Shown: one piece after another, positions 4,159-51,113 of the stretch | Numbering within the stretch: position 1 is the first letter of the stretch | Layout of the letters: every line of letters starts with the position of its first letter | NCBI GenBank assembly: GCA_951801655.1 | Contig: CATONV010000010.1 | Location: forward strand, 1-51,854 | From: an uncultured Oscillospiraceae bacterium | Lineage (GTDB): Bacteria; Bacillota; Clostridia; Oscillospirales; Oscillospiraceae | Direction: 5' to 3' | Length of the DNA: 51,854 nt | Position numbers and translations under genes: made by a program | The notes under the pieces: generated by a model | Databases searched by the model: none | Told to the model about the DNA's origin: nothing | The model's input: only the letters and a program-made list of their open reading frames with translations

Positions 4159-4202
4159 TCCCTCCTGGCCCGCCCGGGTGACGAGATATCATCCTTACTG
4201 TC

Positions 4203-4231
4203 ATTGTAGCAGATTCCAGGTAGGCGGTCAA
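4203..4231 (-). promoter_or_regulatory. Promoter for the membrane protein-mutL unit
   Basis: On the minus strand TTGACC (4226-4231), a 17-bp spacer with TGC before the -10, and TACAAT (4203-4208), 45 bp upstream of the start at 4158. Confidence 0.7.
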
Positions 4232-4300
4232 GCGGACCCGACGCAGGACGCAAGGGTCTTCAGGGCGCCTTTGAGGGGCGGCCTGCGGCGGCGAGGGCCG

Positions 4301-4335
4301 AAAAACCCCGGATACCTGCTCCAAGGTATCCGGGG
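4301..4335 (-). terminator. Rho-independent terminator, leftward
   Basis: A 12-bp perfect stem (4306-4317 with 4324-4335) and a 6-nt loop; A5 at 4301-4305 gives U5 on the minus transcript. It is placed to stop transcription from the tadA side, although it lies 320 bp beyond tadA. Confidence 0.85.
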
Positions 4336-4656
4336 CTCTTCGTTGAAAAAGAGGATTAAAATGAAACGAACTGTCTCTTGCAAAGTCTATAATAACGGAA
4401 AGATATTAACAAATCCAACGCCATTTGTTACAAAAGGATTAAATCGCCTAAAAAATTTCCAGAGAGAAGAGAGACTTTTGGCATTTTTGGACATATTCCC
4501 AAAGACTTGGCAAAAAGGAGGAAAGGCCAACGGAGCGACCCGTCAGCCTTTCAAAAAATGGAGGATAGAATGAAAAGATGTTCTTGCCTTGCGAGTATGA
4601 GTATAGACAAAAGATTTTACAAAAGTTCTTGCAAGATGTTACAAAAGATTTAAATA
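4336..4656. other. AT-rich island with two tiny SD-led reading frames
   Basis: This gap is strikingly AT-rich against its surroundings. On the plus strand a 70-codon frame (4361-4573, MKRTVSCKVYNN start, GAGG upstream) overlaps by ATGA a 27-codon frame (4570-4653, MKRCSCLASM start, GGAGG at 4560-4564). ACAAAAG recurs, with TGTTACAAAAGGATTAAAT near 4427 echoed by TGTTACAAAAGATTTAAAT at 4637-4655, and TCTTGCAAGA (4627-4636) is a perfect palindrome. A hairpin with AAAGGC/GCCTTT arms lies near 4523-4552. Neither peptide is recognised. It may be a mobile-element remnant, a leader RNA or an untranslated tail of tadA. Coding status is unproven. Confidence 0.35.
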
Positions 4657-5100
4657 TTATCGTAAACTTTGAAAAAATGCCTGGAGGACTGCCTCACACG
4701 CCGTTTTCAGCGGCCCCTGATAAATGCGGGGGCGGTGGTTGAAGCTCTCCTCAAATAGGTTGAGAACCGACCCGCAGCACCCGGCCTTGTCGTCCTTCGC
4801 GCCATAGCGGATCTCCTCGATCCGGGCGTTGATGATGGCCCCGGCGCACATGGGACAGGGTTCCAGGGTGACGTAGAGGGTGCAGCCGTGGAGACGCCAG
4901 CTGTCCAGACGGGCGCAGGCCTCCCGGATGGCCTCTACCTCGGCGTGGGCGGTGGCGTCGCTGTCCGCCTCCCGGCGGTTGCGGCCCCGGCCGATGATCT
5001 CCCCGTCCCTGACAATGACGCACCCCACCGGCACGTCGCCGTCGGCCACCGCTTCCCGGGCCAGACGCAGGGCCTCTGCCATGAAATATTCGTGGTTCAT
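4657..5100 (-). CDS. tadA: tRNA-specific adenosine deaminase TadA
   Basis: Converts A34 to inosine in tRNA-Arg(ACG), allowing wobble decoding. The zinc-dependent deaminase signature is complete: HAEVEAI (His ligand and catalytic Glu) and PCPMCAGAI (two Cys ligands), preceded by GDVPVGCVIV. The start is set at MNHEYFMAEAL (5100), giving 147 aa, the normal length; the longer upstream frame is a different gene. Its ATG overlaps the TGA of the DUF4177-like gene (ATGA), so the two are probably translationally coupled. Confidence 0.96.
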   Translation of the reverse strand: MNHEYFMAEALRLAREAVADGDVPVGCVIVRDGEIIGRGRNRREADSDATAHAEVEAIREACARLDSWRLHGCTLYVTLEPCPMCAGAIINARIEEIRYGAKDDKAGCCGSVLNLFEESFNHRPRIYQGPLKTACEAVLQAFFQSLR

Positions 5101-9976: not shown

Positions 9977-10147
9977 CTACTCAGCCAGCCTCTTTTCGTA
10001 TTTTTTCAGAAGATCTTCTACCGCTTCGTCGATCAAGCGGGATTTCGGCACTCGTGTCTTTTTTGAGAGCTCGTCTAAGGGATTCACTAATTCGTTAGCA
10101 AGAGACGTAACCAGTCTTTTGCGATGAACAAAAACAGAATCTGCCAT
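9977..10147 (-). CDS. Ribbon-helix-helix DNA-binding protein (56 aa)
   Basis: Likely a small transcription factor or antitoxin-type protein. The C-terminal half reads LDELSKKTRVPKSRLIDEAVEDLLKKY in sense, i.e. the RHH pattern with a short basic N-terminal strand (VFVHRKRLVTSL), then two helices joined by TRVPKSR. The start is set at MADSVFVHRKR (10147) with GAGGTGG upstream. It is divergent from another RHH gene (10275). On its own strand an extended -10 (TGCTATACC near 10180) may be its promoter. Region is AT-richer than the flanks. No toxin gene of the classical type II kind adjoins it. Confidence 0.78.
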   Translation of the reverse strand: MADSVFVHRKRLVTSLANELVNPLDELSKKTRVPKSRLIDEAVEDLLKKYEKRLAE

Positions 10148-10229
10148 ACTACACCACCTCGTTACCACATATGCACCATTTGGTATAGCATAACAGAAGG
10201 CAATTCAGAAAACAAGAATGTACCATGTA

Positions 10230-10274: not shown

Positions 10275-10421
10275 ATGAAAAAAGCGGACAAAAAAGTAAC
10301 AGTTGGAATGCCTCAAGAACTCTATGATGCGCTGAAACAGATGGCAGAGGAGGATTCCCGATCGATTTCCAACTTTATCCGCCAGGTTTTGTGGGCATAT
10401 TGCAGAGAAAAAGTCCTTTGA
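10275..10421 (+). CDS. Ribbon-helix-helix (CopG/Arc-like) protein (48 aa)
   Basis: A compact RHH protein missed by length cut-offs. KKVTVGMPQELYDALKQMA (residues 6-24) is the beta-strand plus helix A pattern, and EDSRSISNFIRQVLWAYCRE gives the turn and helix B; SRSISNFIRQ is a classic RHH signature. AAGGGG precedes the ATG at 10275. It is divergent from the RHH gene at 9977-10147 and ends 18 bp before the promoter of the putative antisense RNA. Possible roles are autorepressor or antitoxin; target unknown. Confidence 0.8.
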   Translation: MKKADKKVTVGMPQELYDALKQMAEEDSRSISNFIRQVLWAYCREKVL

Positions 10422-10439
10422 AAGGGCAGCGGCAAACCA

Positions 10440-10467
10440 TTGACAATGCGGCGGCGTGTGGTATAAT
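10440..10467 (+). promoter_or_regulatory. Strong promoter of putative antisense RNA
   Basis: TTGACA (10440-10445), a 16-bp spacer and TATAAT (10462-10467): both hexamers are consensus. No plus-strand open frame with a ribosome binding site follows, which points to an RNA product starting near 10474. Confidence 0.85.
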
Positions 10468-10473
10468 AAATTC

Positions 10474-10560
10474 AAAGGGCGCTGTTGCATAGCGGTCAGC
10501 CCTCAGGTTTTGGCTAAATTACGTTAGCCGTCCGGGGTCGAGCCGGGCGGCTAACACGCG
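10474..10560 (+). ncRNA. Putative antisense RNA (type I antitoxin-like)
   Basis: Inferred from the consensus promoter at 10440-10467 and from absence of a plus-strand gene. The transcript contains GGCTAA...TTAGCC (about 10513-10529) and a strong hairpin (10523-10555, GTTAGCCG arms). It overlaps the 3' end of the peptide gene at 10551-10646 on the other strand. Its 5' segment (GGCGCTGTTG, then GCGGTCAGCC) nearly repeats the 5' segment of the opposing transcript (GGCGCTGTTG, then GCGGTTAGCC), so the locus is bounded by an imperfect inverted repeat. The 3' end is not defined because no U-tract is evident; the transcript may run further. Confidence 0.55.
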
Positions 10561-10646
10561 TTTGGGGATGTAATAATCATCAACAGCAAGGTGATGACCA
10601 AACAAATCGCAAAACGCAGGACTTTCGCCCAACGTCCGCTGTCCAA
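10551..10646 (-). CDS. Putative type I toxin-like hydrophobic peptide (31 aa)
   Basis: The frame starts at TTG (10644-10646), 8 nt after AAGGGGGTG, and ends at TAG (10551-10553). Residues 9-26 (VLRFAICLVITLLLMIIT) form a single membrane helix after a short polar start (MDSGRWAK) and before SPNAC. In the mRNA the ribosome binding site pairs with CCCTT just upstream (CCCTT GTG AAAGGG), as in translation-repressed type I toxins. A perfect TTGACA-17-TATAAT promoter lies 63 bp upstream and an opposing promoter fires an overlapping antisense RNA. The size, single helix, hidden SD and antisense RNA together match TxpA/BsrG/Fst-like or Hol-Tox-like modules; family assignment is inference and toxicity is untested. 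Confidence 0.6.
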   Translation of the reverse strand: MDSGRWAKVLRFAICLVITLLLMIITSPNAC

Positions 10647-10708
10647 TCCGCATCACCCCCTTTCACAAGGGAGTGGCTAACCGCCATACTACAACAGCGC
10701 CTGTCCTC

Positions 10709-10737
10709 ATTATAGGAAACAGGCGTTGTTTTGTCAA
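10709..10737 (-). promoter_or_regulatory. Perfect consensus promoter for the peptide gene
   Basis: On the minus strand TTGACA (10732-10737), 17-bp spacer, TATAAT (10709-10714). It begins 3 bp after the pth stop codon, so the peptide gene is independently expressed. Start near 10702. Confidence 0.88.
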
Positions 10738-10740
10738 TTA

Positions 10741-47755: not shown

Positions 47756-48012
47756 AACACATGGAAAATGCGCAGAAAAGGACGAGTACCCGCCCCCGAT
47801 ACGCACAGAGAGCCGCCGTGTGGTGAAAGGCGGACGGGAGGGAGCAGGGAAAATCACCTTGGAGCTGAGGGCTGAACAACAGTAGGCCCCTCCGGACGGC
47901 CCCCGTTAGCGGGCTGACTTGAGTGGTCAAAGCGTTGCGCTTTGGCAAGAAGAGTGGTACCGCAGAGGTTTTGCGCCTTTGTCTCTTTACGGGGACAGAG
48001 GCGTTTTATTTT
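47756..48012 (+). promoter_or_regulatory. T-box riboswitch with isoleucine specifier
   Basis: Senses uncharged tRNA-Ile to permit read-through. Stem I has the AGAGAG K-turn element (near 47810) and a GGTGAAAGGC loop; the specifier codon ATC (47853-47855) sits in GGGAAAATCACCTTGGAGC. The T-box core AAGAGTGGTACCGC (47949-47962) pairs with the tRNA 3' end (TGGT matches discriminator A). The competing terminator is 47973-48003 (arms GCGCCTTTGTC and GACAGAGGCG) followed by TTTTATTTT. It lies before a small zinc-ribbon gene and ileS, so both are Ile-tRNA controlled. Confidence 0.93.
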
Positions 48013-48323: not shown

Positions 48324-51113
48324 ATGGACTACAACAAGACCATCAATCTGCCCAAGACCGACTTCCCCATGCGGGGCGGCCTGCCCAAGCGGGAGCCCGA
48401 CATGCTGAAACGCTGGGAGGACATGGACCTCTACCACGAGCTGCTGAAAAAGAATGAGGGAAAACCCCTTTACAGCCTCCACGACGGCCCTCCCTTCTCC
48501 AACGGCGCGCTGCACATGGGCCACGCCCTGAACAAGTCCATCAAGGACTTCATGACCCGCGCCGCCGCCATGCGGGGCTACCTCACCCCCTATATCCCCG
48601 GCTGGGACAACCACGGCATGCCCATCGAGTCCGCCATCATCAAGCAGAACAAACTCAACCGCAAGGCCATGTCGGTGGCCGAGTTCCGCACCGCCTGCCA
48701 CGAGTTTGCCCAGCACTATGTGGACGTGCAGCGGGAGGGCTTTAAGCGCATGGGCGTTATCGGCGACTGGGAGAACCCCTACCTCACCATGAACCCCGGC
48801 TTTGAGGCCGAGGAGGTGAAAATTTTCGGGGCCATGTACAAGAACGGCTATATCTACAAGGGCCTCAAGCCGGTGTACTGGTGCCCCCACGACGAGACCG
48901 CCCTGGCCGAGGCGGAGATCGAGTACCAGGACGACCCGGTCACCACCGTCTATGTGAAATTCCAGGTGAAGGACGACCAGGGCAAGCTGGGGCAGTATGG
49001 CGATGTGTCCAAGATGTACTTCCTCATCTGGACCACCACCATCTGGACTCTGCCCGGCAACCTGGCCATCGCCCTCCACCCCCGGGACAGCTATGTGCTG
49101 GTGAAGGCGGACAACGGCGAACAGTACATTCTGGCCGAGGCGATGCGGGACAAGGTCATGAAAATCGGCGGCGTGGAGAACTACGAGACCGTCGCCACCT
49201 TCCAGGGCCAGGACTTTGAATATATGCTGGCCCAGCACCCCTTCCTGGACAAGACTTCCCAGCTGTGTACCGCCGAGTACGTCACCATGGACAGCGGCAC
49301 AGGCTGCGTCCACACCGCCCCCGGCTTCGGCGCGGACGACTACGAGACCTGCAAGCGGTACAAAATTGACATGGTGGTGCCCGTGGACGACCGGGGCCGC
49401 CACACCGACTACGCCGGCAAGTACGCCGGCATGAAGACCGACGAGAGCAACCCCGTCATCCTGGCCGATATGAAGGAAAACGGGGCCCTGTTCGCCAGCG
49501 AGGACATCGTCCACTCCTACCCCCACTGCTGGCGGTGCAAGCACCCCATCATCTTCCGGGCCACCCCCCAGTGGTTCTGCTCCGTGGACTCCTTCAAGAA
49601 CGCCGCCATGGCCGCCTGCGAGGACGTGCGCTGGATTCCCGGCTGGGGCATCGACCGGATGAAGTCCATGATTCAGGAGAGGGCCGACTGGTGCATCAGC
49701 CGTCAGCGCCGGTGGGGCCTGCCCATTCCTGTGTTCTACTGCAACCACTGCGGCAAGCCCATCTGCACCGATGAGACCATCGCCGCCGTGTCTGCCCTGT
49801 TCGGCGAGAAGGGCTCCAACGCCTGGTATGAGATGGAGGCGGCGGACATCCTGCCCAAGGACTTCGCCTGCCCCCATTGCGGCAAGTCCGCCGGCTTCAC
49901 CAAGGAGGAGGACACCCTGGACGGCTGGTTCGACTCCGGCTCCACCCACTTCGCCTCCATGAAGAAGGACCAGGGCTTCTGGCCCGCCACCGTCTACATG
50001 GAGGGCCTGGACCAGTACCGCGGCTGGTTCCAGTCCTCTCTGCTCACTGCCGTGGGCGCGCTGGGCAAAGGCGCCCCCTTCAAGGAGTGCGTCACCCACG
50101 GCTGGACCGTGGACACCCAGGGCCGGGCCATGCACAAGTCTCTGGGCAACGGCGTGGACCCCGCCGACATTTTTAACAAGTACGGTGCCGACCTCATCCG
50201 CCTGTGGGCCGGTTCCGCCAACTACCACGTGGACGTGTGCGGCTCCGAGGTGATTTTCAAACAGCTCTCTCAGAACTACCTGAAGTTCCGCAACACCGCC
50301 CGGTACTGCCTGGGCAACCTGGACGGCTTCGACCCCAACAATCTGGTCAAGCCCGAGGAGATGGTGGAACTGGACCGGTGGGCCGTCACCAAGCTGAATG
50401 GCCTCATTGAGAAGTGCTTCGCCGCCTATGACAACTACGAGTACCATGTTGTCAGCCACACCATCAACGACTTCTGCGTGGTGGAGCTGTCCAGCTTCTA
50501 TCTGGACATCATCAAGGACCGGCTGTACTGCGAGGAGAAGGACGGCCTCCTCCGCCGCTCCGCCCAGACCGCCCTGTTCCTGATCCTGGACACTATCACC
50601 AGACTCTTCGCCCCCATCCTGGCCTTCACCTGCGACGAGATCTGGCTGGCTATGCCCCACCGGGAGGGGGACGACGGCCGGAATGTCCTCCTCAACGAGA
50701 TGAACAAGCCCTTTACCGAGTACGCTCTGGACCAGTCCTCTATGGAGTGCTGGGACCAGCTGATCTACCTGCGCGACAACGTCAACGCGGTGCTGGAGGG
50801 AGCCAGAAACCAAAAGCAGATCGGCAAGAGCCTGGAGGCCGCCGTCTCCATCGAGCTGCCCAAGGATTTCTCCTGGGTGGACCGCCTGGACAAGGAGATG
50901 CTGGCCGACCTGCTCATCGTCTCCCAGGTAGAGACCTCCCTGACCCAGGAGGGCCCTATGGATGGACAGACGCTGAGCTTCCGTGTACGCCCTGCCCAGG
51001 GCCAGAAGTGCGAGAGGTGCTGGAAGGTGCTGCCCACTGTGGGTCAGGACAGCAGGCACCCCACCCTCTGTCCCAGGTGCGCGAAGGTGGTCCCCGCCAT
51101 CGAAGTCGAATAA
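48324..51113 (+). CDS. ileS: Isoleucyl-tRNA synthetase
   Basis: Charges tRNA-Ile with isoleucine and edits valine. Class I motif GALHMGHALNK (HIGH) near residue 65, editing-domain blocks (WTTTIWTLPGN, TGCVHTAPGFGADDY), and the KMSKS position as GRAMHKSLGNGVDP near 600: the second lysine is kept but the first is Ala. The zinc knuckle is present at the C-terminus (CERCWKVL...LCPRCAKV). The overall length of 929 aa fits the bacterial type. AAAGGAGG precedes the ATG. Controlled by the T-box; closed by a strong terminator. Confidence 0.98.
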   Translation: MDYNKTINLPKTDFPMRGGLPKREPDMLKRWEDMDLYHELLKKNEGKPLYSLHDGPPFSNGALHMGHALNKSIKDFMTRAAAMRGYLTPYIPGWDNHGMPIESAIIKQNKLNRKAMSVAEFRTACHEFAQHYVDVQREGFKRMGVIGDWENPYLTMNPGFEAEEVKIFGAMYKNGYIYKGLKPVYWCPHDETALAEAEIEYQDDPVTTVYVKFQVKDDQGKLGQYGDVSKMYFLIWTTTIWTLPGNLAIALHPRDSYVLVKADNGEQYILAEAMRDKVMKIGGVENYETVATFQGQDFEYMLAQHPFLDKTSQLCTAEYVTMDSGTGCVHTAPGFGADDYETCKRYKIDMVVPVDDRGRHTDYAGKYAGMKTDESNPVILADMKENGALFASEDIVHSYPHCWRCKHPIIFRATPQWFCSVDSFKNAAMAACEDVRWIPGWGIDRMKSMIQERADWCISRQRRWGLPIPVFYCNHCGKPICTDETIAAVSALFGEKGSNAWYEMEAADILPKDFACPHCGKSAGFTKEEDTLDGWFDSGSTHFASMKKDQGFWPATVYMEGLDQYRGWFQSSLLTAVGALGKGAPFKECVTHGWTVDTQGRAMHKSLGNGVDPADIFNKYGADLIRLWAGSANYHVDVCGSEVIFKQLSQNYLKFRNTARYCLGNLDGFDPNNLVKPEEMVELDRWAVTKLNGLIEKCFAAYDNYEYHVVSHTINDFCVVELSSFYLDIIKDRLYCEEKDGLLRRSAQTALFLILDTITRLFAPILAFTCDEIWLAMPHREGDDGRNVLLNEMNKPFTEYALDQSSMECWDQLIYLRDNVNAVLEGARNQKQIGKSLEAAVSIELPKDFSWVDRLDKEMLADLLIVSQVETSLTQEGPMDGQTLSFRVRPAQGQKCERCWKVLPTVGQDSRHPTLCPRCAKVVPAIEVE

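Follow-up and report, generated by a model that had tools for sequence, protein, structure and literature searches.

A short module at positions 10438-10740, about 300 bases, of the window (the whole stretch of 51,854 nt that was analysed, from an uncultured Oscillospiraceae bacterium; GCA_951801655.1, contig CATONV010000010.1, forward strand) is one copy of a repeat family. An earlier, sequence-only reading of this DNA had placed two convergent near-consensus promoters here, and both match the consensus at 12 of 12 positions. From the minus-strand promoter (TTGACA-17-TATAAT, 10709-10737) the sense RNA, the putative toxin mRNA, is predicted to start near 10702; the plus-strand promoter (TTGACA-16-TATAAT, 10440-10467, with a TG before the -10 element) would start an antisense RNA near 10474. 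Five promoter-like sites lie within 1.5 kb, as against 0.9 ± 0.9 in shuffled sequence. The predicted full-length mRNA is ~230 nt long (10473-10702, minus strand, both ends placed by prediction) and closed by pairing of its ends. The predicted antisense RNA (10474-10565, plus strand, its 3' end likewise placed) would be ~90 nt long if it ended after a hairpin, T1, that is common to both RNAs.

Promoters were scored in 54 modules of the family. The antisense promoter averages 11.8 of 12 consensus positions (shuffled sequence, 5.6) and the sense promoter 10.5 (shuffled sequence, 5.8), with 53 and 47 modules, respectively, scoring at least 10. It is from the antisense promoter, thus kept in 53 of 54 modules, that an antisense RNA gene overlapping the toxin mRNA is predicted; because the promoters converge, the overlap would fall at the 3' end of the mRNA, provided that the mRNA passes T1 and that both RNA ends are rightly placed. 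The same reading took the plus-strand RNA to have its own promoter, as it does, and no coding frame; short, mechanically called open reading frames are present on that strand. It also held the first ~25 nt of the two RNAs to be near-identical, and ~26 nt are indeed alike, with an exact core inverted repeat (10 of 10) and a likeness that continues beyond it. On the antisense side, the repeat starts 10-15 nt past the -10 element in 52 of 54 modules. On the sense side, the distance from promoter to element ranges over 4-55 nt (7-10 nt in 21 of 54), and many relatives' mRNAs would start before the shared element because the sense promoter lies further upstream there.

Two short genes nearby (10275-10421, plus strand; 9977-10168, minus strand) are by their look presumably regulators of the ribbon-helix-helix (Arc) type. 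They were considered as parts of the module and dropped: related DNA is found near pth in several relatives that lack the module. The module itself was not found beside pth in any of the 19 same-genus loci examined (of 29 relatives with a pth match), ~1.5 kb being covered on each side and less at contig ends. Elsewhere in the window, a T-box leader (47764-47989, plus strand) stands upstream of a 929-codon frame (48324-51113) that we take to encode isoleucyl-tRNA synthetase.

The peptide frame

The 31-codon, TTG-initiated frame that had been proposed is present on the minus strand (10551-10646) and would encode the candidate toxin peptide. It has a single hydrophobic helix: residues 9-26 had been named as one membrane helix, and the hydropathy maximum is the 17-residue stretch 9-25. 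Its stop codon, TAG, lies inside T1. The TTG start is peculiar to this copy, which has ATT at the position homologous to the ATG of its relatives and a 1-nt insertion that brings TTG into frame; among 57 modules, all with the frame, there are 52 ATG starts, four GTG starts and this one TTG. Family peptides are 24-31 residues long with one helix (a typical one is like MGNGRWAKALRFLVCFIIILAVMIYISPKAC) and mostly end in motifs such as (S/A)PKAC, SIKAC or SPKAM, with one basic residue.

Loss of the frame from homologous loci had been named in advance as one refuting condition, and the frame is kept in relatives. In 35 frames of 31 codons the mean BLOSUM62 score is 2.91, against 1.63 ± 0.28 and a maximum of 2.39 in 200 column shuffles, and there are no in-frame stops where the shuffles average 46 (35 sequences). 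Diversity by codon position is 0.34/0.18/0.35. The pN/pS ratio is a modest 0.69 in frame 0, nearly equalled by one antisense frame (0.68), and another antisense frame has a BLOSUM62 score of 2.45, which exceeds all shuffles, but contains six stops. These coding measures are mixed; taken together, they argue that the frame does encode a short hydrophobic membrane peptide.

Family, copies and distribution

Element matches (112) and loci added later yielded 64 peptide-bearing candidates, from which seven spurious ones were dropped by eye to leave the 57 modules. The alignment used for structure holds 45 of them, the other 12, whose leaders are unusual or whose 3' elements are unclear, having been excluded; tail structure was followed in 53 modules, single-sequence folds in 53 and a direct-repeat test in 52, and peptide libraries were searched with 49 of 55 distinct peptides, six near-duplicates being set aside.

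A second copy, 80% identical, lies on another contig of the same genome (contig 17, L068). About 180 bases from it (L068, about 4200-4600) there is a remnant, a promoter and the start of the element, upstream of a short regulator-like frame; it looks as if that frame had taken over a strong promoter. Among 400 genomes of the bacterial family, 46 match at E <= 1e-5, the genome of the window included. A profile of the peptide matches 19 of 394 genomes of the order at E <= 0.001, again including this one, and, in samples of the class (391) and phylum (398), only the window's own genome at E <= 1e-4; these counts are lower bounds, a 31-residue profile missing divergent members. Peptide-profile matches are confined to one order among the sampled genomes. 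An exact-pattern scan of named genomes returned 12 stretches, including Evtepia gabavorous (two, in the cultured strain KLE1738), Colidextribacter, a Butyricicoccus MAG and Oscillospiraceae MAGs. Five IMG/VR viral contigs also match. Ten proteins encoded on viral contigs were tested: two contigs (L072, L073) have tail proteins, L069 an integrase, L070 a head-decoration protein and a weak tape-measure match, and L071 only a family of unknown function. Searched with one module, plasmid records gave no match and phage records a single one, unannotated.

Structure of the predicted mRNA

Both RNAs share an element near their starts, and the ends of the toxin mRNA can therefore pair with one another. 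The conserved 5' element of the mRNA (10675-10701, minus strand) would form a local hairpin with G-U pairs and, alternatively, the 5' half of the end-pairing. Its partner at 10478-10501, in a predicted fold that shows covariation, is at once the 3' element of the mRNA and, on the plus strand, the 5' element of the antisense RNA. The ribosome-binding site had been proposed to be sequestered, and in the predicted fold it pairs with an upstream CUCCCUU in a covarying hairpin (ACUCCCUU/GUGA/AAGGGGGU; 10655-10674, minus strand). T1 (10523-10555) also covaries. The fold predicted for the 230-nt mRNA has a free energy of -108.7 kcal/mol, against -75.4 ± 4.6 in shuffled sequence (z = -7.2).

RNAalifold, applied to the 45 aligned modules, finds the ribosome-binding-site hairpin, T1, a short in-frame stem and the long-range pairing of the first and last ~26 nt, a covarying pairing of 21 bp. 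Over the 38 pairs counted, 97.6% of cells are paired and 129 are changed on both sides, as against 41 ± 11 in shuffles (none of 500 as high) and at most 17 in slid controls, with the qualification that the structure was derived from the same alignment and that kinship of sequences inflates such counts. For the end-pairing taken alone, the both-side changes number 33 against 8.7 ± 2.4 (again none of 500 as high); the number of pair types, 37 against 36.4, shows no excess. Individual columns make the alternation plain: in the ribosome-binding-site hairpin, columns 35-50 are CG in 23 and UA in 20 modules, and columns 38-47 CG in 20 and UA in 16; in T1, columns 177-205 are GC in 23 and AU in 22, and columns 178-204 AU in 25 and GC in 20. 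The stop codon within T1 alternates between TAG, TGA and TAA, and the opposite arm changes to compensate. L024, which lies outside the count, has a deviant 5' element matched by an equally deviant 3' element. In single-sequence folds the end-pairing appears in 53 of 53 modules, a figure that is favoured by the collection of modules with patterns for both elements, and the ribosome-binding site is paired in 52 of 53 and was not located in the remaining one. What the sequence-only reading took as the anatomy of the locus (a short membrane peptide, a convergent antisense RNA and a hidden Shine-Dalgarno sequence) is thus conserved and covarying across the aligned modules.

The two copies of the shared element are not equivalent. 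The local hairpin has 94.5% of its cells paired at the mRNA 5' end, by way of G-U pairs, and 70% at the 3' end; on the 3' strand two of its pairs are mismatched in 44 and 38 of 45 modules, and the matching 5' positions are G-U pairs. Strand-polar G-U pairing of this kind argues that the element is built for RNA 5' ends, that is, that selection acts on RNA and not on DNA. The local 3' hairpin was also considered as a strong terminator of the mRNA, a role that its mismatches weaken. The T-rich stretch at the predicted mRNA 3' end (49% T against 28-29%) overlaps the start region of the antisense promoter as well. T1 is a possible terminator of the antisense RNA and might, being common to both RNAs, be a bidirectional intrinsic terminator like that of Fst/par; the U-runs that follow it are short or weak, and it is absent from the output of a terminator scan. 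Three observations lead us to place the mRNA 3' end beyond T1, at the 3' element: the tail described below is hypervariable, yet only the antisense RNA and an mRNA extending past T1 would have it in common; the 5' and 3' elements covary and can pair; and the T-rich stretch lies there.

More distant members vary in their leaders and elements. Five loci (L049, L052, L055, L060, L063) have long non-standard leaders whose predicted fold still hides the ribosome-binding site, 4-5 of its 5 core bases being paired. In copies at L061 a small hairpin is inserted between the frame and T1, shifting the stop codon out of T1; on the antisense strand the insertion also creates a stretch of 4-5 consecutive T close to T1. 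Among 26 loci scanned in the order, ~13 have an element-like inverted repeat of at least 9 nt; none was found in seven peptide-bearing loci (L092, L100, L102, L104, L106, L107, L112), and the rest are ambiguous. Despite that scan, L092, the one of the seven that was inspected, keeps the end-pairing.

The hypervariable tail

T1 and the 3' element are separated by a tail (10502-10522; 16-32 nt across the family) that is complementary between the two RNAs and is a candidate for the stretch by which they recognise one another. This stretch, the part that would match the antidote RNA, diverges much more quickly than the remainder of the module. In the alignment, mean identity over all pairs of modules is 0.30 in the tail, 0.57 in the frame and 0.66 in the T1 loop, and it is 0.77-0.81 for both elements, the ribosome-binding-site hairpin and the T1 stem.

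Closely related copies make the point more sharply. With the body taken from the element to the end of the frame, tandem copies agree at 143 of 146 body and 16 of 27 tail positions in L009, and at 143 of 145 and 15 of 24 in L061; two copies in the same genome (L012/L039) agree at 144 of 146 and 18 of 27. The corresponding figures are 143 of 146 and 14 of 25 for L017/L032, 136 of 137 and 16 of 29 for L051/L071, and 142 of 147 and 14 of 25 for L070/L073, in which the sense promoter region is also divergent (48 of 62). T1 in these near-identical pairs is more divergent than the body (24 of 32 to 44 of 49). The remaining pairs compared have more divergent bodies (81-94%), and L057/L065 was left out of the comparison. 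With the same aligner, tails of all modules agree at 0.52 ± 0.07 (95% below 0.64; 52 tails) and shuffled tails at 0.48 ± 0.06, so that the tails of bodies 97-99% identical, at 0.55-0.67, are near random, L012/L039 being slightly above.

Flanking DNA shows what happens at a single site. L070 and L073 are homologous across the module (local alignments of 4.5 kb at 97% and 3.3 kb at 95%) and L051 and L071 on both sides of it (237 bases at 98% and 623 at 94%); in these pairs, therefore, the tail has been replaced at the same site. The tails of L018 and L022 are identical (23 of 23), these two loci being collinear for 2.5 kb at 93%. Same-site tails being thus either identical or replaced, the tail does not simply drift. 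Just upstream of the module there are insertions of ~200 nt in L051 (about 238-439) relative to L071 and of ~75 nt in L073 (about 4655-4730) relative to L070. The tails of L012 and L013 are also identical (27 of 27); those of same-genome pairs differ in all eight that were examined. L092, from another bacterial family, has three tandem modules (about 1040-2090). The two outer ones, first and third, have the same peptide frame and leaders with a single difference; what sets them apart is the T1 loop, the tail and a few positions in the 3' element. In the middle module the peptide is another one and the leader is long.

On the antisense strand the tails are poor in G (12%) and mostly unstructured (53 modules), as expected of a stretch at which pairing starts. 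A small conserved hairpin in the tail, which visual inspection suggests in some copies, was rejected as a general feature (mean p 0.54; p < 0.1 in 7 of 53). TAAAC is enriched in antisense-strand tails (12 of 53 against 3.3 expected). The tail of the window's own module has no other site in its genome at up to three mismatches.

A candidate type I toxin-antitoxin module

The observation itself is confirmed. We read the locus, with a probability of roughly three in four, as a candidate member of an undescribed family of type I toxin-antitoxin modules, one that would combine a 3'-overlapping antisense RNA with a Hok-like pairing of the mRNA ends and a hypervariable recognition tail. By sequence the family is new, by architecture it is a variant of type I, and its function is predicted; that it works as a toxin-antitoxin pair, with a toxic peptide neutralised by the antisense RNA, we infer from this architecture.

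A working scheme can be proposed. The mRNA would be made in an inactive form, its ends paired and its ribosome-binding site hidden, and the antisense RNA, from the stronger-looking promoter, would be in excess. The antisense RNA would dock on the 3' region of the mRNA by way of its single-stranded, G-poor tail and the T1 loop, and would vie with the 5' end of that mRNA for pairing to the 3' element; the resulting duplex would then be destroyed by decay of the RNase III type. Were the antisense RNA depleted, or the mRNA 3' end trimmed, the end-pairing would open, the peptide would be made and the membrane would be damaged. Once tails had diverged, the antisense RNA of one module would not silence another. 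We favour an end-paired inactive mRNA and a 3'-docking antisense RNA because the antisense promoter is the nearer to consensus (11.8 against 10.5) and because a search for cognate pairing with the leader gave no clear instance.

Other readings have to be weighed. The peptide might be a small regulatory membrane protein (stress-responsive, for example) that an antisense RNA keeps at a low level, which would suit a peptide conserved as coding and the few weak, scattered matches to small membrane proteins. We consider it distinctly unlikely: the patchy occurrence of the module, in 46 of 400 genomes of the family and beside pth in none of the 19 relatives' loci, counts against it, and tandem and multiple copies, phage-like settings and diversification of the tail are a better fit to addiction. 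That toxin-like control serves a phage-exclusion or lysis function borne by prophages is improbable. The viral contigs that carry the motif also have tail, head-decoration or integrase genes, an association based on five viral contigs and one phage record, but the copies in the window and on contig 17 adjoin what, by eye, are ordinary chromosomal genes. Lastly, the inverted repeat at both ends, the many scattered copies and the tandem ones could be those of a small non-autonomous mobile element with the promoters and the peptide as passengers. This we regard as most improbable, since both promoters lie outside the inverted repeat and yet are conserved, the spacing of repeat to promoter is held at 10-15 nt on the antisense side (52 of 54) and varies (4-55 nt) on the sense side, and the strand-polar G-U pairs suggest that RNA, not DNA, is the selected form.

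What the tail is for is a separate matter from the toxin-antitoxin reading of the module. It could be a free spacer, the rest of the module being homogenised by gene conversion with no selection for novelty: the tail is mostly unstructured, and conversion could homogenise copies within one genome. We think this unlikely, given the skewed composition of the tail (G, 12%) and the finding of same-site tails that are identical (L018/L022, 23 of 23) or replaced (L070/L073, 14 of 25; L051/L071, 16 of 29) between flanks that are, in the last of these pairs, 94-98% identical. A tentative idea, possible if still doubtful, is that the tail is an actively rewritten specificity barcode: it would be replaced wholesale, with module and surroundings otherwise almost unchanged, and selfish modules, whether on chromosomes or on phage-like elements, would thereby evade one another's RNA antidotes. 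If this were true, RNA-coded immunity groups would be engaged in an arms race, supplied by a local diversifying process not known so far.

The candidate module, if borne out, would represent a conserved type I toxin-antitoxin family in gut bacteria for which the literature searched has no such system. Among the literature matches listed, which include a riboswitch review and unrelated microbiome papers, there was none on type I systems in these bacteria (most subscription journals lay outside the search, and a description elsewhere is possible) and none, by title, on hypervariable type I antisense RNAs. The family would also unite mRNA end-pairing with 3'-overlapping antisense control, so far known from separate systems. 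Natural tail variants on near-identical modules make antisense specificity directly testable, and could show the minimum number of matching bases and how new specificities originate and persist.

Comparison with known type I systems

That the family might be undescribed had been suggested, and searches of Pfam, NCBIfam, Rfam and the PDB bear this out in giving no convincing match: Rfam covariance models, at gathering and at permissive thresholds, did not match the module, and Pfam and NCBIfam (with six peptides and then 49) and a PDB profile search yielded no convincing family. A relation to Hol-Tox, a family we take to be PF16935, had also been suggested and finds no support, none of 49 member peptides matching a toxin family in Pfam at E <= 1, a threshold at which HMMER filters limit weak matches. 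Nor did any of the 49 match a Pfam or NCBIfam model of Fst/Ldr-family peptides at E <= 1.

The likeness to Fst/par is one of layout: convergent promoters, a ~230-nt toxin mRNA, a toxin of ~30 residues, a hairpin over the ribosome-binding site and a hairpin common to both RNAs (RNA I-RNA II; available text of PMC7472228). In Fst/par it is by means of direct repeats that the antisense RNA covers the region of the start codon, and two systems of this type in one cell do not interfere with one another, as far as that text goes (PMC7472228). Here there is instead an inverted repeat, without clear cognate pairing to the leader. An 8-nt direct repeat of tail and leader occurs in one of 52 modules, which speaks against the Fst-type mechanism that had been drawn upon, and the initiation region shows hardly any preference, if any, for its cognate (mean rank 0.46 with the tail and 0.42 with the whole antisense stretch, a rank of 0.5 standing for no preference).

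BsrG/SR4, TxpA/RatA and YonT/SR6 have, as is predicted for this module, a short membrane toxin, an antisense RNA at the mRNA 3' end and a hidden ribosome-binding site; type I antitoxins of B. subtilis bind the 3' end of the toxin mRNA and promote its decay, and the ribosome-binding sites of some of the toxins are held in 4-5 GC pairs (PMC6562991, part of the text). The peptide searches, giving no family match, show no toxin homology with the BsrG/TxpA class, and the overlap, ~80-90 nt here on the assumption that T1 ends the antisense RNA, would be shorter than the 100-140 nt of that class. Shared 5' elements, mRNA end-pairing and a hypervariable tail are features of the family described here; in the available portion of PMC6562991 none of them is described for the BsrG/TxpA class. 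In the class of C. difficile CD2517.1-RCd8, toxin and antisense genes likewise converge and overlap, both in Clostridia and in prophages of these bacteria; its toxin C-termini are lysine-rich (PMC6563280, in the text available), whereas the end motifs of most peptides here have one basic residue. That review of Clostridia, in the same portion, names the C. difficile modules, and no word in it starts with Ruminococc, Faecalibacterium or Oscillospir (PMC6563280).

Sok pairs in the 5' leader of its target and acts on an upstream frame (mok), whereas the antisense RNA predicted here overlaps the 3' end. Hok mRNA has a metastable 5' hairpin. Hok/Sok resembles the scheme proposed here in that the ends of the toxin mRNA pair and the mRNA starts out inactive; 3' processing is required before translation (PMC4147584, in part); pairing of the ends is here predicted, with covariation. 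Ibs/Sib offers a further likeness, in its several copies per genome and in recognition by way of limited domains (PMC4147584, in part). Sib extends over the entire coding region together with the ribosome-binding site; in the family described here, the variable part lies outside the frame, in the 3' tail.
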